From Muribaculum sp. (GTDB lineage Bacteria; Bacteroidota; Bacteroidia; Bacteroidales; Muribaculaceae), in the NCBI GenBank assembly GCA_023664085.1, contig JAMPGE010000004.1, forward strand, positions 1 through 64,000: a stretch of DNA of 64,000 nt. Reading direction: 5' to 3'. A program made the position numbers and the translations under genes. A model generated the notes under the pieces. It was given only the letters and a program-made list of their open reading frames with translations. It searched no databases and was not told the DNA's origin. Positions 3,510 to 18,992 of this stretch are shown here, piece after piece (within the stretch, counting starts at the first letter, position 1; each line of letters begins with the position of its first letter).

Positions 3510-3836
3510 TCAGCGATTGTCACCACTGCCGCCCAACTTGCCGCGTTCAGCGCGTGAGCGTAGTTTGTAGATGTTCATCTGTGCGATTGCTTCAAGCGAG
3601 AAGTCCAAGTCGCGTGCAAGCGTTGCACAGTACCACAGCACGTCACCGATTTCGAGCGCGATTGCTTCTTTGCGTTCGTCATCGAAGCACTGATTGTTGT
3701 CGCGAATGACTTTCTTCACTTTGTCAGCAACTTCACCGGCTTCGCCACACATACCGAGTGCTGGATATATGATGCGCTTGTCTTCAGGATAGACAGCCGT
3801 CTTCAGTGCTTCTTTCTGATAGTCGTTCAATGTCAT
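3510..3836 (-). CDS. MazG-like nucleotide pyrophosphohydrolase
   Basis: The product is an all-alpha NTP pyrophosphatase of the MazG superfamily. The first metal-binding helix is GEAGEV and the second is EIGDVLWY. The longer reading frame from 3932 overlaps the upstream gene, so I choose the ATG at 3836 (MTLNDYQKEAL), which gives 108 residues, the usual size of phage MazG. It would hydrolyse non-canonical or excess NTPs to NMP and pyrophosphate; some phage homologues lower host ppGpp. The ThyX-like and Nmad1 genes lie just upstream in the same operon, pointing to a nucleotide-pool module. Confidence 0.85.
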   Translation of the reverse strand: MTLNDYQKEALKTAVYPEDKRIIYPALGMCGEAGEVADKVKKVIRDNNQCFDDERKEAIALEIGDVLWYCATLARDLDFSLEAIAQMNIYKLRSRAERGKLGGSGDNR

Positions 3837-3873
3837 TTTCTTTGCTTTTTGAAAAGTATTATTGATTTGATGT

Positions 3874-4527
3874 TCATTTTTCACTGTTTGTGAACAGTTC
3901 GAGATAATCAGTGAGTACGGTCTGACCGACACCGCTGTTTATCCACTGACACGACTTCGGTTCTGAACAGATGCCGCCACGAAAGACACACTGCGGTACA
4001 AGATGCGGTGCAAGTGCCGGGTCTGCGATTGCCACACCCAACGCGATTTGTGTCATCACGTCACGCGTTTCTTTCGATGCTTTCGCGCACAGACGTTTGT
4101 GCGCCATGTTGATGAGTGCTTCAGCATTGCAGATGAAAGCGATGTCGGTCGGTGCGTAGCGGTCGAAGTATTTCGGCAACATATTGACACGCGCTTCTGC
4201 TACACTCAGACGGTCAATGTCAGGTGTCGTGATGCCGTCATCAATCTGTTGTGCGATTTCAGTACATTCAAGCGCGAAGTCTGCACCGCCACGGTCGATG
4301 CGCTTGCTGCGCTGAAAGAACTGCACGCCAACGTGACTTCTGACAAGTTGCGATGCGACAAACAAAGGTATGTCTGTCAGTTCGACCCAAAACATCTGCG
4401 TGCGTATGGGCGAATGTCCGTAACGATACGCTGTTTCAAGCGTCATGTGACTGTCGTGACCGGTCGTGAAGCCGTTAGCACGCTGCAACAGCGACACATC
4501 GGTCAGTTTCTTGACTTCTGCTTTCAT
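3874..4527 (-). CDS. ThyX-related (flavin-dependent thymidylate synthase-like) protein
   Basis: The 217-residue protein resembles the ThyX family in size and layout. The segment around residues 58-76 (SQLVRSHVGVQFFQRSKR) sits where ThyX has its RHR-x7-8-S signature, and a long helix with NAEALINMAHKRLCAK follows. The canonical RHR and terminal Arg-Tyr are not intact, so activity as dUMP methylase is uncertain; a modified pyrimidine substrate is possible. It overlaps the DUF4494 gene by 4 bases. I am fairly confident of the family, less of the chemistry. Confidence 0.6.
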   Translation of the reverse strand: MKAEVKKLTDVSLLQRANGFTTGHDSHMTLETAYRYGHSPIRTQMFWVELTDIPLFVASQLVRSHVGVQFFQRSKRIDRGGADFALECTEIAQQIDDGITTPDIDRLSVAEARVNMLPKYFDRYAPTDIAFICNAEALINMAHKRLCAKASKETRDVMTQIALGVAIADPALAPHLVPQCVFRGGICSEPKSCQWINSGVGQTVLTDYLELFTNSEK

Positions 4528-4961
4528 TCTTCAGACAGTTTTGCTTTGAACACGTCAACGATGTTCGTTTCTGCGATTGATACGATTTCAAAGTCAGCCA
4601 TTGTGCCTTTCATGCCGTCAAGAAAGTTTTCAAGCGCGTTGTTGAAGTCGCACGCCTGAACCATGATGACAGACACGTTGCGCTTTTCTGCTGCTGTCTT
4701 TTCATCGATAGTGATGAAAGCAACTTTGACCTGATACCAACGGTCTGCGTTTTCGTTCCAAAAGATTTCAGCGATTTTCGACTTTGCGACTGCTGAAACT
4801 GTGAACTCGCCACTGATGTACGGTTTCACTTCTTCGATGATGCGTGCTTCGGCTTCTGTGAAACTCAAAGCATCGACAAGATACGATTGTGTTACGCGCT
4901 TCAGTGTGCCGTTGTCTTGCATCTTGTCGAAGCGCACCGATGTTTTAATCCATTGTGCCAT
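4524..4961 (-). CDS. DUF4494 family phage protein
   Basis: This 145-residue protein matches DUF4494, a family found in Bacteroidetes phages and mobile elements. The hallmark is the stretch SYLVDALSFTEAEARIIEE, followed by a beta-rich region with IFWNENADRWYQVKV. The biochemical function of the family is unknown. It overlaps the ThyX-like gene by 4 bases and follows a 90-residue hypothetical gene by 2 bases. Confidence 0.8.
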   Translation of the reverse strand: MAQWIKTSVRFDKMQDNGTLKRVTQSYLVDALSFTEAEARIIEEVKPYISGEFTVSAVAKSKIAEIFWNENADRWYQVKVAFITIDEKTAAEKRNVSVIMVQACDFNNALENFLDGMKGTMADFEIVSIAETNIVDVFKAKLSEE

Positions 4962-4963
4962 GA

Positions 4964-5236
4964 TTAGTTTAATAATGATTTTTGACTTGCTCCGAAGAAC
5001 TCTTCAGGGGTTTTGTCAATGATGTTTCTGATAATCTTCACGTCAGCATCAAGTGCTTTCAATGCTTCTGCTTTTGACGGTGCGTGCGTCAGCCACATTG
5101 CGAGATATGCGTTTGCTGCACCGATGATGCCGTTGATGTTGATTGCGCGATGTTCGCGAACAAACTTGTCTGTCGCGTTCTGCAACTTGTCGTTCAGCAT
5201 GAACGCAAGTTGATTTTGGTCGGGTTGCTGTTTCAT
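4964..5236 (-). CDS. Hypothetical phage protein
   Basis: This 90-residue, predicted helical protein has no recognised domain. It overlaps the upstream Nmad1 gene by 4 bases and precedes the DUF4494 gene by 2 bases, so it is part of a tightly coupled run of four genes. Confidence 0.6.
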   Translation of the reverse strand: MKQQPDQNQLAFMLNDKLQNATDKFVREHRAININGIIGAANAYLAMWLTHAPSKAEALKALDADVKIIRNIIDKTPEEFFGASQKSLLN

Positions 5237-5547
5237 TGTTTTGATTGGTCTGAAATTTCCATTGCGAGCATTATCGCATAGTTAGCCATGTCGAGAAGTG
5301 TGTCAACTGCGCTTTCGCTGTTGACTTGTGCGACTGCATCGTTCAGAAGAAGTTGCTTCGCACGATTGTATTTGTCACCGATGCGCACGATGCCGGCAAT
5401 CGCTCCGTGTTCAGCGAATGACTGACTGAAACTGTTGCCGTAGTCTGCGTTTTTGCGTCTGTATGTATCAGCCATTTCTTCAGTGATGCGCTTGAAGCGA
5501 AGCACATTCTGCGATGTTGACTGAATACGTTCTGTTGTTTCGTTCAT
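5233..5547 (-). CDS. Nmad1/DUF1599 (nucleotide modification associated domain) protein
   Basis: The protein matches the Nmad1 family, formerly DUF1599: RRKNADYGNSF is followed by IVRIGDKYNRAKQLL and a C-terminal DTLLDMANYAIM helix. The family is linked by gene context to phage DNA base modification and is thought to be related to the MazG-type all-alpha pyrophosphatases. A longer frame opens at 5607, but it would run through a strong hairpin; I choose ATG 5547 (MNETTERIQ), giving 104 residues. The ThyX-like and MazG genes lie immediately downstream. Confidence 0.75.
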   Translation of the reverse strand: MNETTERIQSTSQNVLRFKRITEEMADTYRRKNADYGNSFSQSFAEHGAIAGIVRIGDKYNRAKQLLLNDAVAQVNSESAVDTLLDMANYAIMLAMEISDQSKQ

Positions 5548-5627: not shown

Positions 5628-6665
5628 TTACTTCACGCTGTTCTTGCGATACGTCTTCATTAGTTTTTCGAGCTTCAGCGATGCTTTGCGTGCGCGTGTG
5701 CCGGCTGCTTTGTTGCCTTTGTTGACGTTCAGTTCTGCGTCTTTCTGAAACGCTGCGATTGTGGCGTTGATTTCAGCCACAAGACTTGTCATTTCTTCCA
5801 TAGTCATTTCTGTTTTTGTGGTTTGTGAATTATTTTGTTGTTTATCTTCATCGTTGATTTCAGTATCAGCGATGTATTTTGCAAGTTCTGTCGCTTGTTC
5901 TTGTTCGTACTTCGCGAAGTCTGCTTTATCAAGTGTCGTATCACCGGCAAATTCTTTGACAAGCACATACAGCCGCTTCAGTTCTTTCGGATAAAGCGTG
6001 TTGCCGATGCTGTAACCAAGTATCGATGTCACTATTTTTTCTTGTGCTGCACAGTAACGTTGCAGTGCTGTCATCACGATACGACAAGCGTATGATGCAC
6101 CGACAAGCAAGCGTGTGTGATATTCGATTTCACCGTACTTCGCTGTCAGATGTTCAACGACATACTTCTGTATGCCACCGAAGAAGTCTGAAAGCGTTTC
6201 TTGAAACATAATCATGTTTTCTGTTTCACTTGCACGCCACTTGTCGTTGATGATTTTGAAGCGTTCACGGTCGTACTCTCTGCGAAGATTTCTGATTTCA
6301 CGACACAACGGCTTCGTTTCACGCAAGCGCATCAGTGTCGCATAATCAAGAATACTGTCTGCATAGTCCCAAGCGACTTCTGCGATGACATACGGCACAT
6401 AAGTGATACTGAACTGCGCTTCTTCTGACAGTGTTTCGTGAAGCAACTTCTTGTCACGTTCTGCTTTTTCAGCGATAGCGCGAACGGCTGCTTCTTGCGC
6501 TGCTTGCTTTCTGCGCTGAAGTTCTTGCATCATCTGTTCGGGTGTCATCGCACGCTGCGGTGTCGGCATTGCGCTCGACCACTGCACGTTGTGAAGTTCA
6601 CCAAGACTGATGCGCTTGCCGGTCGCATCAATGAATGTGCCGTACATTTTTTCAGTTTTCATCAT
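5628..6665 (-). CDS. Phage protein with C-terminal Hc1-like histone tail
   Basis: The 345-residue product has a charged helical N-terminal part (around residues 40-75), a central region of unknown fold, and a Gln/Asn/Thr-rich linker at about 274-285. The final 59 residues (287-345) look like a Bacteroidetes Hc1-type histone H1-like protein, with NKGNKAAGTRARKASLKLEK and a terminal TYRKNSVK. That tail would bind DNA non-specifically. An internal ATG at 5807 could also make the tail as a separate small protein. The start is two adjacent ATG codons preceded directly by CAACGCA. Confidence 0.7.
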   Translation of the reverse strand: MMKTEKMYGTFIDATGKRISLGELHNVQWSSAMPTPQRAMTPEQMMQELQRRKQAAQEAAVRAIAEKAERDKKLLHETLSEEAQFSITYVPYVIAEVAWDYADSILDYATLMRLRETKPLCREIRNLRREYDRERFKIINDKWRASETENMIMFQETLSDFFGGIQKYVVEHLTAKYGEIEYHTRLLVGASYACRIVMTALQRYCAAQEKIVTSILGYSIGNTLYPKELKRLYVLVKEFAGDTTLDKADFAKYEQEQATELAKYIADTEINDEDKQQNNSQTTKTEMTMEEMTSLVAEINATIAAFQKDAELNVNKGNKAAGTRARKASLKLEKLMKTYRKNSVK

Positions 6666-12744: not shown

Positions 12745-14745
12745 TTATGCTTCAACGCGAAGTTTTTCATCGCGTGAAACGATTAGGTTGACGATTTGCG
12801 ACTTCATCGAAATGATGTCGTTGATGCTTTCTGCGTTGTCGATGAAGATTGGCGCACAGATGTCTTCAGACTTGCAGATTGCATTGATGATGTCAAGACC
12901 GGCTGTTATCTGTCCGGCATGATTGAGCGATGCGTAAGGCACACCGTTGATTGTCGCTTCGCACGTTTCGCTTTCTGCGCCATTGATAGCGACTTTCAGC
13001 CAACGAAAGCGAACGTACTTGAACAGGCCGTTAATGCGCTGTTCGATTGCTGCGCTGCGTGCTTTGCTGAACTCTGCGATGATGTATTCTTGGCGTTCAA
13101 GTTCTGCAAGTTCGATGTTCAGTGACTGCATTTCGCTTTCAAGTTCTTCGATGCGCTGTTGAATGTCTTTGACGTTCTTGCGTGATGCGAGCTTCGTGAT
13201 GAGTTCTTCGATTGCTGCTGTCAGCATTGCGCGACCGGTCTTCAGTTCGCTTGTGTCTTCTGTTTTGACTGCTGCTGCGTCATATCGCTTCTGTGCTTCA
13301 GCAATCTGCTGTTCGATGTTCTTCAGTTCAGTATCTTCAGCGATTGCGACTGATGCGTCAGGCTTCTGAAGCGTAACGTTGTAGTCAGCCGATGCTTCGA
13401 TGTCTGCGATTTGCTTCTTCAGTTCTTCGATGCACAGTTGTGCGTCTTCGATGCGCTTCTGATATATTGACTTGCGTTCGTTGTTGCGAAGACCACTTTC
13501 TTTGTTGCGTGCGATGCTTTCAGCGACACGCGCAAGACGTTTCTTGCGTTCTTCTTCAAAGTTCTGAAGCATCTGTGCTTCTTTCGCTTCGATGTCTGCG
13601 ACTTCAAGCGGTCTGTGACAGGTCGGGCAAACAAATTCTTCTTCGTTGAACTGAAGTTGTTCTTCGCTGATTTGCTTCTGTCGTGCGCTCAGTTCGCGCC
13701 ACTGTGCGATAAGTCGTTCACGATTGCCGTCACAGTCTTCGACTTCGCGCTGATTGTCTTCGACAGTCTTCTGCTGTGCCTGAATTTGAAACTTGATTGT
13801 TCTGATGCGCTGTTCAAGTTCTGTGCGCTTCTGCTGAACTGCGTAGTAGTCACACATCACGTCTGCTTCGATGCTGCTTCTGCGCTTGAACTGACTGTCG
13901 CGAAGACTGCTGATTTCGGTCGCGATTGCGCTGCGTGCGCTGTCTGTTGCGCGTGCTGCTTCGCTGATGTCATCGAGTTGCTTTTCTATCTGTGCGCGTG
14001 CTTCAGTCTTCTGCTTTAGTTCTTCTTCAAGCGAAGACCAATCTTCAGACTGTGCTTGTGCAAGGTCGCGCTTCTTTTCATCGATGCGACCGGGTTTGTC
14101 TATCAGTTCAGCATTGATGCGCTGCTTCTTTGCACCGATTTCTTTCTTGTATTCGACAAGTGTCTTGCCGGTGATTGTTTCAAGCAACTGTTCAAAGTCG
14201 CTGTTACCGGCTGCGACTTCAGCGTCTGTGATATTGCCGGCCATACGATGCAACATTGTCTTCTGCGCTTCTGCTTTCTGCGATGTGAACGCTGTCGGTG
14301 ACGTGATGAACTTGAAGATGTTTTCGCTGCAAATTTCAGCGATGTGTGCTTCATATTCAGACTTTGTGCAAGGCACATCGTTGAAGAAGCGTTCTTCTTT
14401 GTTGCCGTTGAACTCTTTGTCAATCTTGCCGGCACGCTTCACCCACTTTTCTGTGAAGCATCGCTTCAGACGTATTTCTTGACCGTTGACAGTGATGATT
14501 GCACTGACTTCGTGCGGCAGTTGTGGAATGATGTTGCCGTCTGCATCGAGCGTCTTCAAGTCAAATTCTTTGCGGTCACTGCTGTCTTTGCCGAACAGAA
14601 GCCACGCGAAAGCATCGAAGACTGTCGTTTTGCCTGAACCGTTGCGACCGAAGATGTTCGTCACTGACTGATTGAACGTGACAGTCAGTTCACGCACACC
14701 CTTGAAGTTTATCAGGCGCATTTCTTTGATGATGATTTCTTTCAT
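12745..14745 (-). CDS. SMC/SbcC/Rad50-like ATPase with zinc hook
   Basis: This 666-residue protein has an N-terminal ABC half with Walker A GRNGSGKT (33-40), long coiled coils, a central zinc-hook CPTC (about 374-377) and a C-terminal half with NHAGQITAGLDI and Walker B PIFIDNAESI. It is a short Rad50/SbcC-type DNA-repair ATPase. I choose the ATG at 14745 (MKEIIIKEMRL) over one at 14781, because it follows the upstream stop by 11 bases and is preceded directly by CAACGCA. No SbcD/Mre11 partner is visible; the MBL-fold protein downstream may be its nuclease. Confidence 0.9.
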   Translation of the reverse strand: MKEIIIKEMRLINFKGVRELTVTFNQSVTNIFGRNGSGKTTVFDAFAWLLFGKDSSDRKEFDLKTLDADGNIIPQLPHEVSAIITVNGQEIRLKRCFTEKWVKRAGKIDKEFNGNKEERFFNDVPCTKSEYEAHIAEICSENIFKFITSPTAFTSQKAEAQKTMLHRMAGNITDAEVAAGNSDFEQLLETITGKTLVEYKKEIGAKKQRINAELIDKPGRIDEKKRDLAQAQSEDWSSLEEELKQKTEARAQIEKQLDDISEAARATDSARSAIATEISSLRDSQFKRRSSIEADVMCDYYAVQQKRTELEQRIRTIKFQIQAQQKTVEDNQREVEDCDGNRERLIAQWRELSARQKQISEEQLQFNEEEFVCPTCHRPLEVADIEAKEAQMLQNFEEERKKRLARVAESIARNKESGLRNNERKSIYQKRIEDAQLCIEELKKQIADIEASADYNVTLQKPDASVAIAEDTELKNIEQQIAEAQKRYDAAAVKTEDTSELKTGRAMLTAAIEELITKLASRKNVKDIQQRIEELESEMQSLNIELAELERQEYIIAEFSKARSAAIEQRINGLFKYVRFRWLKVAINGAESETCEATINGVPYASLNHAGQITAGLDIINAICKSEDICAPIFIDNAESINDIISMKSQIVNLIVSRDEKLRVEA

Positions 14746-14756
14746 TGCGTTGTATT

Positions 14757-15041
14757 TTATTTCATTCTGCGCGTTACGCAATAAGTTGCTGCTTGTGATG
14801 CGAGTTCGTCACGCGATGCTGTGCGGTTCTGAAGTTTCCACGCTTCGATTTCTTCGCGCTTGAAGAACAGCGCACCGTTCTGTTTGTAACTTGGAATTAC
14901 TTGGTCGTTAGCCATGTGTCGCACGCGACTTTCACTGACACCGAGGTCAAGCGCGAGGTCTGCAACCGACCAAACTGATTTCATATACGTTCTGACTGTC
15001 TGCTTGATTTCAGCAAACATCGCTTTCAGTTCATCATTCAT
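14757..15041 (-). CDS. Excisionase-like helix-turn-helix protein
   Basis: This 94-residue protein has a MerR/HTH_17-type winged helix: WSVADLALDLGVSESRVRHM followed by a wing and FFKREEIEAWK (residues 24-69). This is the domain of Xis/excisionase and related DNA-binding proteins. It sits early in the leftward operon, where it may regulate early transcription or excision. It overlaps the membrane protein gene upstream by 4 bases. Confidence 0.75.
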   Translation of the reverse strand: MNDELKAMFAEIKQTVRTYMKSVWSVADLALDLGVSESRVRHMANDQVIPSYKQNGALFFKREEIEAWKLQNRTASRDELASQAATYCVTRRMK

Positions 15042-15280
15042 TTCTTGTCTGCTTTGCGAGCTTCGCGAAGTTCTTCAAGCGATGCGCGAAGCATCAGTTT
15101 ATAACCGACATAAGCCATTGCACTGAACAGCGCGACAAAGATGAAGTCTGTCTGCTGTATCATACAGCGTATTGCATAGGATACACCGAAAAGTATCACA
15201 CAGCACGAAAAGATGACTTGCGCCCACAGATAAGCACGCACTGTTTTGTAAAAGATTTTGTCGATAGTCGCTTCTTTCAT
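15038..15280 (-). CDS. Small two-pass membrane protein
   Basis: The 80-residue product has two hydrophobic segments (about residues 14-38 and 44-62) with charged ends, consistent with an inner-membrane hairpin. No family is recognised. It overlaps both neighbouring HTH genes by 4 bases. Confidence 0.6.
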   Translation of the reverse strand: MKEATIDKIFYKTVRAYLWAQVIFSCCVILFGVSYAIRCMIQQTDFIFVALFSAMAYVGYKLMLRASLEELREARKADKK

Positions 15281-15531
15281 AGTTCTTCTTCGTTTGCGTC
15301 ATCGAAATGACCGGGTGAAAATAATTTGTCTTCAGGCATCTGATAGTGTGCTGCAAGTAGTGCCATAGATGCTTTGTTCGGCTTCTGCTTACCTGACACC
15401 CACGCTCTTGCAGTCGCGACAGATGCACGACCGGCTGCTGCCATTTCTGCAAGTTGCGCTTGTGCCGGTGTAAGTGCTTCAAGCGCATCGTCATAGCGCA
15501 CGTCAAGCGGTTTCTTTCTGTTTTTTGTCAT
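15277..15531 (-). CDS. Cro-like helix-turn-helix protein
   Basis: The 84-residue protein has a helix-turn-helix-like stretch around residues 28-70, with MAAAGRASVATARAWVSGKQ followed by LAAHYQMPEDKLF. I choose the ATG at 15531 (MTKNRKKPLDV); the longer frame from 15576 passes through the hairpin at 15547-15578. As an early leftward gene facing the repressor, a Cro-type role is plausible. It overlaps the membrane protein gene by 4 bases. Confidence 0.65.
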   Translation of the reverse strand: MTKNRKKPLDVRYDDALEALTPAQAQLAEMAAAGRASVATARAWVSGKQKPNKASMALLAAHYQMPEDKLFSPGHFDDANEEEL

Positions 15532-15546
15532 GTATCTGATGTTTGT

Positions 15547-15578
15547 GTGTGGGCGATGCGCTGCGACACCGCCCACGC
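15547..15578 (-). other. Hairpin between the first two early leftward genes
   Basis: A stem of 7 perfect pairs (15549-15555 with 15570-15576), extendable by a wobble pair and one more, encloses a 14-base loop, 16 bases before the Cro-like start. The minus strand contains GTGGGCGGTG, as in the hairpin at 5572-5608. No T run follows. Confidence 0.45.
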
Positions 15579-15586
15579 GGTTCGAT

Positions 15587-15967
15587 TTAGATGTTTGTGA
15601 GATACTTGTTGAACCGTATCGACTCGCGAAGCACTTCGTTTATATGCACAGCGCGTTGTGTCAGTGCGAAGACTGTTTCAGCGATGTTGTCTGCACCGTG
15701 AAGTGCCTTATCAGTAAGACCGAAGCCAAGAAGCGTTGCGAAGTTCTTGATGTTGCGCTTGATAGCACGTTCTTTCAGCATCAGTGTTTCGTATGCCAAT
15801 TCATACCGTGCATAGTCGTTGTCATCAGCGACTTCACGTTCAACACCGTTGATGACTTGAACTGTGAACTTCATTGAATACTGCGCTTCGTTGCGTTCTT
15901 TCAGTGCTTGCAGATACTCGCTTTTCAGTTGGTCGAGTTCGTAAGCTTGTTCGATGATAGTTTTCAT
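15587..15967 (-). CDS. Hypothetical protein, first gene of the early leftward operon
   Basis: This 126-residue, predicted helical protein has no recognised domain. As the first gene after the leftward promoter at 16062-16093, it is expected to be expressed earliest on induction, a position often taken by small regulators or host-takeover proteins. CAACGCAAT lies directly before its ATG. Confidence 0.65.
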   Translation of the reverse strand: MKTIIEQAYELDQLKSEYLQALKERNEAQYSMKFTVQVINGVEREVADDNDYARYELAYETLMLKERAIKRNIKNFATLLGFGLTDKALHGADNIAETVFALTQRAVHINEVLRESIRFNKYLTNI

Positions 15968-15983
15968 ATTGCGTTGAAATTTG

Positions 15984-16014
15984 TTGTCTGTTAAACACTA
16001 ATTTTGTATCTTTG
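15984..16014 (+). promoter_or_regulatory. Rightward promoter of the lysogeny operon
   Basis: A TTG at 15984-15986 and TATCTTTG at 16007-16014 are separated by 20 bases, fitting the Bacteroidetes -33/-7 pattern. Transcription would start near 16021, inside the inverted repeat at 16016-16035, leaving a leader of about 135 bases before the repressor gene. Confidence 0.65.
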
Positions 16015-16015
16015 C

Positions 16016-16035
16016 ACGCTAACTTTTGTTAGCGT
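16016..16035. promoter_or_regulatory. Putative operator (inverted repeat)
   Basis: A perfect inverted repeat with 8-bp arms and a 4-base spacer (ACGCTAAC-TTTT-GTTAGCGT) lies immediately downstream of the rightward -7 box, at the expected start site. Related half-sites with TTTTGTTGG occur at 16076-16085 (inside the leftward promoter spacer) and, inverted, near 16110-16118. Together they look like a repressor operator cluster. Confidence 0.55.
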
Positions 16036-16061
16036 TGCACTCACTTTCGTGATTGACTCTG

Positions 16062-16093
16062 CAAAGATAAACACTTTTGTTGGTTCTCACAAA
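16062..16093 (-). promoter_or_regulatory. Leftward early promoter
   Basis: On the minus strand, TTTG (16093-16090) and TATCTTTG (16069-16062) are separated by exactly 20 bases, a full match to the Bacteroidetes consensus. Transcription would start near 16055 and read the early operon. The spacer contains the half-site AACACTTTTGTTGGT, so bound repressor would block it. Confidence 0.75.
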
Positions 16094-16158
16094 TTATTTT
16101 GATGATTTCCCAACAAAAAAATTGCCAAATTCTTTACCGCGTTAATTATCAGTGACTT

Positions 16159-16491
16159 ATGAAAGGACAAAAAATTAAAGAAATTTTACGCAACGAGGGC
16201 TTCACGCTGTCTGAAGTCGCTTCTCTGCTCGGTTTTGATAACGACCAACGACTGCACAGCGCATTGAAGTCAGACGATGTGAAAAGCGGCCTGATTGAAG
16301 ATATAGCACGCGTCACCAACAAAAGTGTTGGTTTCTTTTACGGTCTACCGGTCTGCATCAACGACCACGGAATACTTGACAGCGACAATGCAACGTACAA
16401 CGAAACCGAAATTTCTGTGCGTTTCATCGGTCTGCTTGAAAAGAAAGATGAACAGATTGACCGCCTGATTGGTCTGCTTGAAAGAAAATAA
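16159..16491 (+). CDS. Phage repressor (HTH protein)
   Basis: The 110-residue protein starts with a helix-turn-helix (residues 6-50: IKEILRNEGFTLSEVASLLG, then VTNKSVGFFYGLPV) and ends in a predicted coiled coil with the repeat IGLLEKK/IGLLERK, likely for oligomerisation. It is the first gene rightward of the operator region and faces the early operon, the position of a CI-type repressor. It lacks a LexA-like autoprotease domain, so induction would need another signal. A sequence matching an operator half-site lies within its own coding region at 16315-16332. Confidence 0.75.
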   Translation: MKGQKIKEILRNEGFTLSEVASLLGFDNDQRLHSALKSDDVKSGLIEDIARVTNKSVGFFYGLPVCINDHGILDSDNATYNETEISVRFIGLLEKKDEQIDRLIGLLERK

Positions 16492-16496
16492 CTGAT

Positions 16497-17000
16497 ATGA
16501 AAGTAAATGTTCAAGACTTCACCGCACGCTTCTGCGGTAGCGGTGAATACCGTCACGGTGTTTATGTGCCTGAAGACGTGCGTCTGCTTCTGATGCAATG
16601 TTCGCTGTCAGGTGATGAGTTCTGCGAAGTGTCTGATAACATCTTCGATGTGATTGAAGATGCGAAACGCACTGATGAACTGCGCACGATGCAGTATAAC
16701 AACATCAGCGAGCTTCGTCTTGCCGGTATGAAAGCCGAAAGTGATGATGATGATGACAGTGCGATTGAATTGTATGCCGAAGCAATCGAAATGGGCGAAG
16801 CATCACAGTTTGACTTGCTGCACGCGTATCGTCACGCATACGACCGCATCATCATATTATTGTCACGCACGCGTGCGTATGCGCGTGAAGCATCTTATAT
16901 CGAACGTCTGCTGAAGCATCAACTTCAGGATGCCGACCGTGAGCGTCTGACTGCGCGACTTGAAAAGACTTTGACAAAACTTAATAGATTACAGAAATGA
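16497..17000 (+). CDS. Hypothetical lysogeny-operon protein, possibly TPR-like
   Basis: This 167-residue protein has an acidic run (DDDDDS near residue 84) inside helices that resemble tetratricopeptide repeats (AIELYAEAIEMGEASQFDLL), and a basic helical C-terminus. It starts 5 bases after the repressor stop and overlaps the lipoprotein gene by 4 bases. As it should be expressed in the lysogen, roles in immunity or host benefit are possible. Confidence 0.6.
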   Translation: MKVNVQDFTARFCGSGEYRHGVYVPEDVRLLLMQCSLSGDEFCEVSDNIFDVIEDAKRTDELRTMQYNNISELRLAGMKAESDDDDDSAIELYAEAIEMGEASQFDLLHAYRHAYDRIIILLSRTRAYAREASYIERLLKHQLQDADRERLTARLEKTLTKLNRLQK

Positions 17001-17813: not shown

Positions 17814-18992
17814 TCAGTCTTCTTTCTGTTCTGTGCTGTTGTCTGTGCTGAATACGTCAGGAATACGCGACACAGCCGCTTGCTTGTTCTTGTCAAGCAC
17901 TTTCGCGTATATCTGTGTCGTTGTCAGTTCACGATGTCCCAAAAGTTTTGAAACTGTGTATATGTCTGTGCCGAGATCAAGCATCAGAACTGCGAATGTG
18001 TGTCGACCACAGTGAAACGTGATGTTCTTGTCGATGCCGGCACGCAAGCACCACACCCTGATTGATTGATTTGTGTCACCGGGGTAGCGAATGTCACCAA
18101 AGACATGGTCTGTCGATTTGCCACGCGGTGTGTCGATGAGTGCTGCTGCTTGCGGACTGATGTCAAGATACTCCTGACCGCCGGTTTTTTTCTGCTTGAA
18201 GACAAGTCGCACATAATCGCCTTGTCGCTGAACTTCGCCCCACGTCAATTTGATGATGTCGCTTCTGCGCAAGCCGGTCAGACACGAAAACAGAAACGCA
18301 CGCTTGATTTCAGGAAAGTCACAGTCTGCTGCTGCAAGTTTGCGCACTTCTTCAAGCGTCAAGTATTGACGAGTGCCTTCTTCGGCTTTGAAGCCGGTGA
18401 TGCCGCGAATTGGGTTGTGAGCGATGATGCGGTCTTCATACGCTTGATTTAGACAAGCGCGAAGTTTGTTGAAGTATGACTGCTTCGAGTTCTGCGACAA
18501 CGGTCGCTTGTCTTTGCGCTTTCGCTTGTCTGTCGAAAATGCTTCTGCTTTCGTATCAAGATAGTTTCTGAAGCCTTCAACCCATTGTGGCGTGATGTCT
18601 GCGAATGTAATGTTGTGTCGCGGTTCGTACTTTTCAAGATGCTTCAGACACGACAGCCAATTTCCCCAATTACCGTGACTTTCTTTGCCACGTCTTTTTT
18701 CAGTCATTGCGCGATAATAGTCGAAGAACAGCGTCTGTTCGGCATAACTGTCTTTGAAGCCAAATTCGCCATTCTGAATTTCGACCATTCGCTGTGCTTT
18801 GATTGACTGTGCAAGTTGAAGCGTTGCACGGTTCTTGTCGCGGTCTTCTTTCGTGCGTTCCGGCACAAGATACAGTTTCAGATATTCATTCGTGCGCTTG
18901 TTGTTTCGGCAGATGTCAAGGTATAGCGCGATAAGACCATTGGCACGCTTTCGTTGTCGTAGATAGACAAATTCTTTAGTTACTTTCTTCAT
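17814..18992 (-). CDS. int: Tyrosine recombinase / phage integrase
   Basis: The 392-residue protein has an N-terminal arm-binding region, a SAM-like core-binding domain (about 105-210) and a catalytic domain with Arg in TGLRRSD (about 241), the HxxR box in FHCGRHTFA (about 330) and the nucleophile Tyr in TTTQIYAKV (about 361). It is of the Bacteroidetes integrase type used by phages and conjugative elements. It would integrate and excise this element at the site next to mnmE. CAACGCA directly precedes the start. The only GATC in the prophage segment (17975) lies in this gene. Confidence 0.95.
   Translation of the reverse strand: MKKVTKEFVYLRQRKRANGLIALYLDICRNNKRTNEYLKLYLVPERTKEDRDKNRATLQLAQSIKAQRMVEIQNGEFGFKDSYAEQTLFFDYYRAMTEKRRGKESHGNWGNWLSCLKHLEKYEPRHNITFADITPQWVEGFRNYLDTKAEAFSTDKRKRKDKRPLSQNSKQSYFNKLRACLNQAYEDRIIAHNPIRGITGFKAEEGTRQYLTLEEVRKLAAADCDFPEIKRAFLFSCLTGLRRSDIIKLTWGEVQRQGDYVRLVFKQKKTGGQEYLDISPQAAALIDTPRGKSTDHVFGDIRYPGDTNQSIRVWCLRAGIDKNITFHCGRHTFAVLMLDLGTDIYTVSKLLGHRELTTTQIYAKVLDKNKQAAVSRIPDVFSTDNSTEQKED

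Follow-up and report, generated by a model that had tools for sequence, protein, structure and literature searches.

The window analyzed here covers bases 1 to 64,000 of a contig 64,204 bases long (JAMPGE010000004.1) in a 2.16-Mb genome of Muribaculum sp. From their gene content and an integrase-like open reading frame (ORF), bases 1 to approximately 19,000 were judged to be a prophage arm truncated at the contig end. Within this arm lies a 2.04-kb cassette (positions 3510 to 5547), in which five minus-strand genes are transcribed in the order DUF1599, a 90-amino-acid (90-aa) ORF, DUF4494, a ThyX-like gene, and MazG (Table 1). The four genes assigned to families had been named in an earlier note on this DNA, and their stated place, on the minus strand, was confirmed by ORF calls, Pfam, and PHROG, with the curated Pfam cut-offs exceeded in every case. 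The 90-aa ORF, which the note had omitted, gave no Pfam match at an E value of ≤1 and PHROG matches only at E values of ≥0.019.

The same note had described the genes as overlapping. This holds for two 4-bp overlaps, between DUF1599 and the 90-aa ORF (5233 to 5236) and between DUF4494 and the ThyX-like gene (4524 to 4527), but 2 bp separate the 90-aa ORF from DUF4494, and MazG begins 37 bp past the end of the ThyX-like gene if its ATG is at 3836. Because of the latter gap, only part of the gene order can be called overlapping. The two overlaps suggest that the genes involved may be cotranslated.

Table 1. Coordinates of the cassette genes and of other prophage features mentioned in the text
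Feature	Position	Strand	Support
DUF1599 (Nmad1), 104 aa, all-alpha	5233-5547	minus	PF07659, 34.3 bits vs cut-off 25, E 3e-8
90-aa ORF, no assigned function	4964-5236	minus	ORF call only
DUF4494, 145 aa	4524-4961	minus	PF14902, 181.5 bits vs cut-off 27, E 9.7e-54
ThyX family, RSH at the RHR site, four clade-invariant Cys (C147, C180, C187, C193)	3874-4527	minus	PF02511, 33.5 bits vs cut-off 24.8, E 4.6e-8
MazG-domain nucleotide pyrophosphohydrolase, 108 aa	3510-3836	minus	PF03819, 38.1 bits vs cut-off 22, E 1.9e-9; PHROG 229, E 2.7e-40
Phage protein, 345 aa, C-terminal 50 residues histone H1-like Hc1	5628-6665	minus	PF07432, E 8.5e-20
ParB-like gene	730-1299	minus	
ABC-ATPase gene, cut by contig end	2-751	minus	PHROG 11143
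Integrase-like ORF	17814-18992		resemblance by eye

Fold and conservation of the ThyX-like protein

The ThyX-like protein passes the PF02511 cut-off, and its AlphaFold model, made from an alignment of 99 sequences (98 of 126 nonwindow relatives plus the window), has the ThyX fold with a mean pLDDT of 97.3. All 50 Foldseek matches listed from the PDB were ThyX, and 47 of the 50 VIA-align entries listed were ThyX or PolB, with Z scores of 10.2 to 14.4; unrelated rows ran from Z 5.3 downward. The best VIA-align match (Z 14.4) was Helicobacter pylori ThyX with FAD and dUMP. The fold is shared with canonical ThyX (3n3y, 3ah5, and 1o26) over 160 to 167 residues at Z 13.2 to 14.4 (3ah5, Z 14.4, 167 aligned; 3n3y, Z 14.2, 160 aligned; root mean square deviation [rmsd] of 4.1 for both), although the ThyX and PolB sequences aligned by VIA-align were 13 to 19% identical to it. 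PolB, a ThyX-like UMP/dUMP methylase, matched at Z 10.2 to 10.6. No PHROG matched the window protein at an E value of ≤1, and PHROG 85 weakly matched two of seven clade relatives.

Relatives were collected as 183 stretches including the window, some being duplicates of one place; 127 were nonredundant and 122 were aligned, the five outside 130 to 300 aa having been dropped (counts out of 122 include the window sequence). Across these sequences, whose identity to the window protein falls as low as 25%, nine residues were invariant (H38, S39, R76, R145, C147, C180, C187, E189, and C193), while R63 was kept in 121 and H64 in 116, with S64 in the window and three others. Taken together, the fold model and the clade-wide invariant residues argue for a ThyX-fold protein under tight constraint and not a decaying copy. 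A ThyX-derived, noncatalytic binder of nucleotide or flavin, or a regulator, would agree with the loss of the exact RHR motif in all 122 sequences, but nine residues held invariant down to 25% identity are better explained by a catalytic site than by relaxation of the fold, and this alternative appears very unlikely. In a FastTree tree of 37 of the 99 clade members, 13 canonical ThyX, and 8 other ThyX (Microbacterium phage AnnaSerena left out), the clade stayed together with a support of 0.63. One in-frame TAG was reported in three relatives; stop recoding was rejected, as the TAG is a plain terminator in L006, and L005 and L007 align identically.

RHR is the canonical FAD-site motif of ThyX, and RHRX7S is the ThyX signature. 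The full signature was found in the 30 best-scoring ThyX loci of the phylum; the window protein has R63-S64-H65 instead, a placement obtained when its profile was aligned with 13 canonical ThyX from the phylum, over window residues 5 to 65 only (probability 50, E value of 1.6e-4). R63 aligns to the first Arg of RHR and H38 to the His of the canonical His-Thr/Ser-Thr/Ser-Pro-Phe-Glu. The earlier note had called the motif degraded. The exact RHR is indeed absent, but a decaying gene was rejected as the explanation, the deviation being a clade trait common to all 122 aligned sequences. The clade also differs at position 42, which in a joint alignment is Arg in 113 and Lys in 9 of the 122 sequences, whereas canonical ThyX have Glu (13/13) and other ThyX Glu or Asp (7/8). 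Structure prediction, which had been proposed as a check on the FAD and dUMP sites, returned the ThyX fold; the differences in the active-site region are read from the sequence alignment only.

The four invariant cysteines (Table 1) could bind metal. One scan for relatives used a single pattern holding Cys180 and Cys187 and was thus biased for those two; in sequences found with patterns lacking all four cysteines, all four were still present (65/65). In canonical ThyX of the phylum, the segment that starts 60 residues ahead of RHR and runs through the end of the protein contains 0 or 1 Cys (n = 29). That the four cysteines are private to the clade was nevertheless rejected, since Arg-Leu-Cys, together with a similar arrangement of C-terminal cysteines, also occurs in several phage ThyX outside it. 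Six virus proteins annotated as thymidylate synthase were compared, with the motif RTR in Pbunavirus PA6 and Bas101, RQR in Gordonia Erutan, Mycobacterium Visconti, and Microbacterium AnnaSerena, and RHR in Acidianus ATSV. Five of the six have Arg-Leu-Cys, as in the window clade, and a C-terminal Cys...Gly-x-Cys is found in Erutan, Visconti, Bas101, and PA6; AnnaSerena differs in having neither feature. An unannotated phage ORF with RHV at the motif (L266) has Arg-Lys-Cys and the full Cys...Cys...Cys pattern. The pattern is therefore neither private nor universal, being partly present in other phage ThyX and absent in AnnaSerena and two plasmid ThyX. Five aligned annotated phage or virus proteins keep both the third-position Arg of the motif and an N/D-x-R at position 136, whereas L266 keeps the latter only and the window clade neither.

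A protein encoded on Enterococcus hirae plasmid pHDC14-2.133K (L267), adjoining dfrE and annotated as FAD-dependent thymidylate synthase, is without RHR and has Arg at position 42 and Gln at position 136. It is possibly a parallel rebuild of the ThyX site.

Genomic neighborhoods of the ThyX-like clade

The ThyX-like gene was seen in Crassvirales phage cr116_1, Bacteroides phage BS-TP1, and more than 150 IMG/VR loci, as well as in bacterial genomes titled Muribaculaceae, Bacteroides, Prevotella, and others. In the family to which the window's genome belongs, 9 of the 297 genomes drawn, its own included, had a match. Within 6.5 kb of the gene at 127 loci, the three largest neighbor clusters were NrdG-like (n = 25), dUTPase-like (n = 23), and NrdD-like (n = 21); further clusters included a second ribonucleotide reductase (RNR) type (n = 15), DUF1599-like (n = 12), and MazG-like (n = 9) genes, while tail genes and others formed clusters no larger than 16. 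These numbers, obtained with a greedy ORF caller and BLAST, are lower bounds, and each cluster was named by visual inspection of a single member sequence. In phage BS-TP1, the next gene downstream of the ThyX-like gene is annotated as the RNR large subunit, and by eye three related loci have the same arrangement (L012, L023, L024, and L025 in all).

Using Pfam models, 50 viral contigs of at least 40 kb were searched over their whole length. NrdD, the anaerobic RNR, was found in 18 contigs and dUTPase in 29 (28 above the cut-off). ThyA was found in none of the 50, many of which are possibly fragments; as no record was rated 90% complete, absences in this set are weak. In 12 of the 18 contigs with both genes, NrdD lay no more than 6 kb from the ThyX-like gene, compared with 2.24 expected, and none of 20,000 random placements gave a count as high. 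The corresponding figures for dUTPase were 9 of 29 and 4.12, with a fraction of 0.015. Placements were made within contigs, excluding the second pieces of split dUTPase matches (G697, G700, G703, and G740) and entering split NrdD matches (G724, G734, and G739) as single stretches. This design was used in place of a control around the single-stranded DNA-binding protein (SSB) gene of the window, which yielded five loci and was too small. The RNR and dUTPase genes of the neighborhood point to deoxynucleotide supply.

The order MazG-ThyX-DUF1599 recurs at six loci (L072, L075, L086, L088, L089, and L155). A metagenome-assembled genome named Bacteroides sp. holds L071, a prophage or prophage remnant, in which the genes run in the order histone-like protein, ThyX, zinc-ribbon-like ORF, DUF1599, and DUF4494. 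The ThyX of bajarodcaudo virus 1 (PQ006092.1) stands in the clade alignment with the invariant residues, and dUTPase, DUF1599, and a TRX gene lie upstream of it in one stretch; it differs in being 30% identical to the window protein and in that no MazG or DUF4494 was found in that stretch. In one viral contig, a DUF4494 relative (34% identical; L083:5501-5926) directly precedes a ThyX-like gene, with pairing and order as in the window.

These arrangements bear on whether ThyX, MazG, DUF1599, and DUF4494 share a pathway at all, since phage early regions gather small metabolic genes and the four could be independent. The gene order differs among the window, L071, and the L072-type phages; DUF1599 is near the ThyX-like gene at 11 of 126 loci and MazG at 8 of 126; and L082 and L084, 55 to 59% identical in ThyX, show no other window proteins in the stretch examined. 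However, there is a group of related phages in which ThyX lies between MazG and DUF1599, the pair DUF1599 and DUF4494 recurs beside ThyX in L071, and the two 4-bp overlaps suggest cotranslation. On balance, independence is judged unlikely.

Two further observations were made at these loci. A relative of the window's histone-like phage protein sits immediately upstream of ThyX in L071. In another prophage (G054), an 872-aa ORF at 14297 to 16915 (joined L018-L020) reads ...LPTGC and then HAKGEKVLIWNDEP..., which by eye looks like an intein in a helicase Walker A motif.

DUF1599, DUF4494, and MazG and the search for base-modifying enzymes

The Pfam name of DUF1599 is "Nucleotide modification associated domain 1", and the earlier note had linked the domain by context to phage base modification. 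In contrast to Nmad1-type contexts, the same genome carries a chromosomal gene with two tandem DUF1599 domains, adjoining a DoxX-like gene, and no modification enzyme was recognized near the phage copy. A chromosomal DUF4494 paralogue, 61% identical to the phage protein, adjoins a YggS-like gene (both neighbors named by eye). In a control set of 14 genomes, DUF1599 and DUF4494 were both matched only in Bacteroides ihuae. Because both are also chromosomal genes of the same bacterium, they are by themselves no signal of base modification; both families belong to the host lineage as well, and the name Nmad1 is no evidence here.

The AlphaFold model of the DUF1599 protein has four helices (pLDDT 87.9), and 12 residues were invariant in 20 sequences (K32, N33, S39, F40, G48, K59, R62, E78, D82, T83, D86, and Y90). 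Its best VIA-align match was AF_0060 (2p06_B; 85/88 residues, rmsd of 3.0), at a Z score of 9.2 that is below the level advised for helical models; HisE (1y6x, Z 5.3) and YpjD (2gta, Z 5.0) were also in the list, with many unrelated helical proteins at Z 5 to 7. No Foldseek match was found for the model at an E value of ≤0.001, and a profile comparison with a MazG set, made to see whether DUF1599 is a MazG homologue, gave no match. AF_0060 we take to be a member of the all-alpha NTP pyrophosphatase superfamily. The alignment with AF_0060 and the conserved acidic residues E78, D82, and D86 suggest that DUF1599 is a candidate NTP-pyrophosphatase-like hydrolase. In the MazG protein, E32, E35, E62, and D65 were invariant in nine of nine sequences and fit ExxE...ExxD, the pattern of the acidic metal-binding residues of MazG.

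No base-modifying enzyme was recognized in 21 scanned ORFs between positions 2 and 14781 (19 scanned by Pfam and 20 by PHROGs) of a prophage that ends at the contig end; prophage ORFs outside these family scans include those starting at 2933, 6814, 7733, 14757, 15587, 16159, 16497, 16997, and 17814. The scanned ORFs comprised replication, recombination, ParB-like, VRR-NUC, ABC-ATPase, and unknown families. The ParB-like protein matched PHROG 498, "DNA methyltransferase" (E value of 8e-14), over only profile positions 42 to 171 of 633 and beside many ParB PHROGs. Known phage hydroxymethylases belong to the ThyA-type enzyme class, of which the 50 contigs, many of them possibly fragments, yielded no member. 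The helical domain of 5-hydroxymethyl-dU (5-hmdU) DNA kinase (HMUDK_hel) was found in none of the 50 contigs, a weak negative as the search control was silent.

The ParB-like gene is followed by the ABC-ATPase gene, which the contig end truncates; L039, a full-length relative, carries a C-terminal GNAT domain. Streptococcus phages MismyG and Javan141 likewise have a ParB-like gene, an ABC-ATPase gene, a few further genes, and terminase in this order; MismyG has a separate GNAT gene, and the ParB-like gene of Javan141 is annotated "DNA modification methylase". By gene order, the pair appears to be a recurrent preterminase phage module with no function assigned.

A probable cassette for dTMP supply and nucleotide-pool cleaning

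From the fold, family, conservation, and neighborhood observed, we infer that the locus is a prophage early-gene cassette for dTMP supply and nucleotide-pool cleaning around a divergent ThyX, serving ordinary phage DNA synthesis, and give this reading a probability of about 0.55. The reaction, cofactors, and substrates, and the action of the genes in one pathway, are put forward conditionally. As judged from its sequence and model, the ThyX-family enzyme would most likely transfer a one-carbon unit from methylene-tetrahydrofolate via FAD to C5 of dUMP, forming dTMP. MazG, and probably also DUF1599, would hydrolyze (d)NTPs to monophosphates, their likely roles being conversion of dUTP to dUMP or removal of unwanted nucleotides. 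DUF4494 and the 90-aa ORF are given no role in the model. ThyX carried by archaeal viruses is said in one study to be likely to boost thymidine synthesis (PMC9894754).

A number of findings weigh against this reading. The window protein scores 20.4 bits against the NCBI thyX equivalog TIGR02170, far under its cut-off of 87.9, and the exact RHR occurs in none of the 122 aligned clade sequences. At position 136, 109 of them have Gln and the other 13 Glu, whereas seven of eight other ThyX have the Arg of Asn-x-Arg there; this argument is weakened because all 13 canonical ThyX of the phylum carry His at the site and the E. hirae plasmid protein carries Gln, for which reason the loss of a universal Arg at this position was rejected. 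Two of the fold matches, 3ge9 and 3fnn, are corynebacterial ThyX titled as not required for thymidylate synthesis, so the fold alone is no proof of the reaction. In the contigs, 20 of the 29 dUTPase genes are farther than 6 kb from the ThyX-like gene, and the placement test counts partly related contigs as independent, so its NrdD and dUTPase figures are indicative. The low counts of DUF1599 and MazG near ThyX-like genes given above tell against it as well. The host also has its own ThyA, and the phage gene would therefore supplement the dTMP made by the infected host or take over its synthesis.

Alternatively, the clade might make another C5-substituted pyrimidine nucleotide, such as 5-hydroxymethyl-dUMP, with the flavin-bound methylene released to water and not reduced, and with MazG and DUF1599 clearing the canonical competitor; this puts the proposal of the earlier note in specific form. 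The change from RHR to R-H/S-x throughout the clade (122/122), the Gln or Glu at position 136, and the basic residue at position 42 (acidic in 13 of 13 canonical and seven of eight other ThyX) are consistent with this, as is the fold match to PolB, a ThyX relative with altered nucleotide specificity (PMC5954106). However, these sites are known from alignment only, position 136 is His in canonical ThyX of the phylum, and changes of this kind are also present in the E. hirae plasmid protein by dfrE, which is read as making dTMP. The neighbors are RNR and dUTPase, no modifying enzyme was recognized in the scanned prophage ORFs, and the 5-hmdU kinase domain was absent from the 50 contigs, if weakly so. 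We therefore consider an altered product improbable. A fuller version, in which a rebuilt active site with the four cysteines as a metal or Fe-S center makes a C5-modified pyrimidine nucleotide such as 5-hydroxymethyl-dUMP in place of dTMP, so that phages would have a flavin-based way of modifying bases while DUF1599 and MazG clean the pool, is more improbable still.

The dTMP-supply reading thus keeps one part of what the earlier note had proposed. A nucleotide-metabolism module is supported by the ThyX fold, by MazG, and by the RNR and dUTPase neighbors in relatives. DNA base modification, in contrast, is unsupported, unproven, and less likely, as DUF1599 and DUF4494 are also chromosomal, the RHR change is clade-wide, and the scanned ORFs held no recognized modifying enzyme.

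In a literature search, no paper was found on phage ThyX and the RHR motif, RHRX7S, flavin-dependent thymidylate synthase with modified DNA, or crAss-like phage ThyX, and the NCBI thyX model misses the window protein despite the widespread phage clade. The cassette is a real, recurrent phage nucleotide-supply cassette, and its ThyX without RHR is a divergent variant. The residues invariant in the clade provide a short list for asking whether ThyX works without RHR or has switched product. Naming the clade would annotate a probable thymidylate step in phages that have their own RNR and dUTPase and no recognized ThyA.

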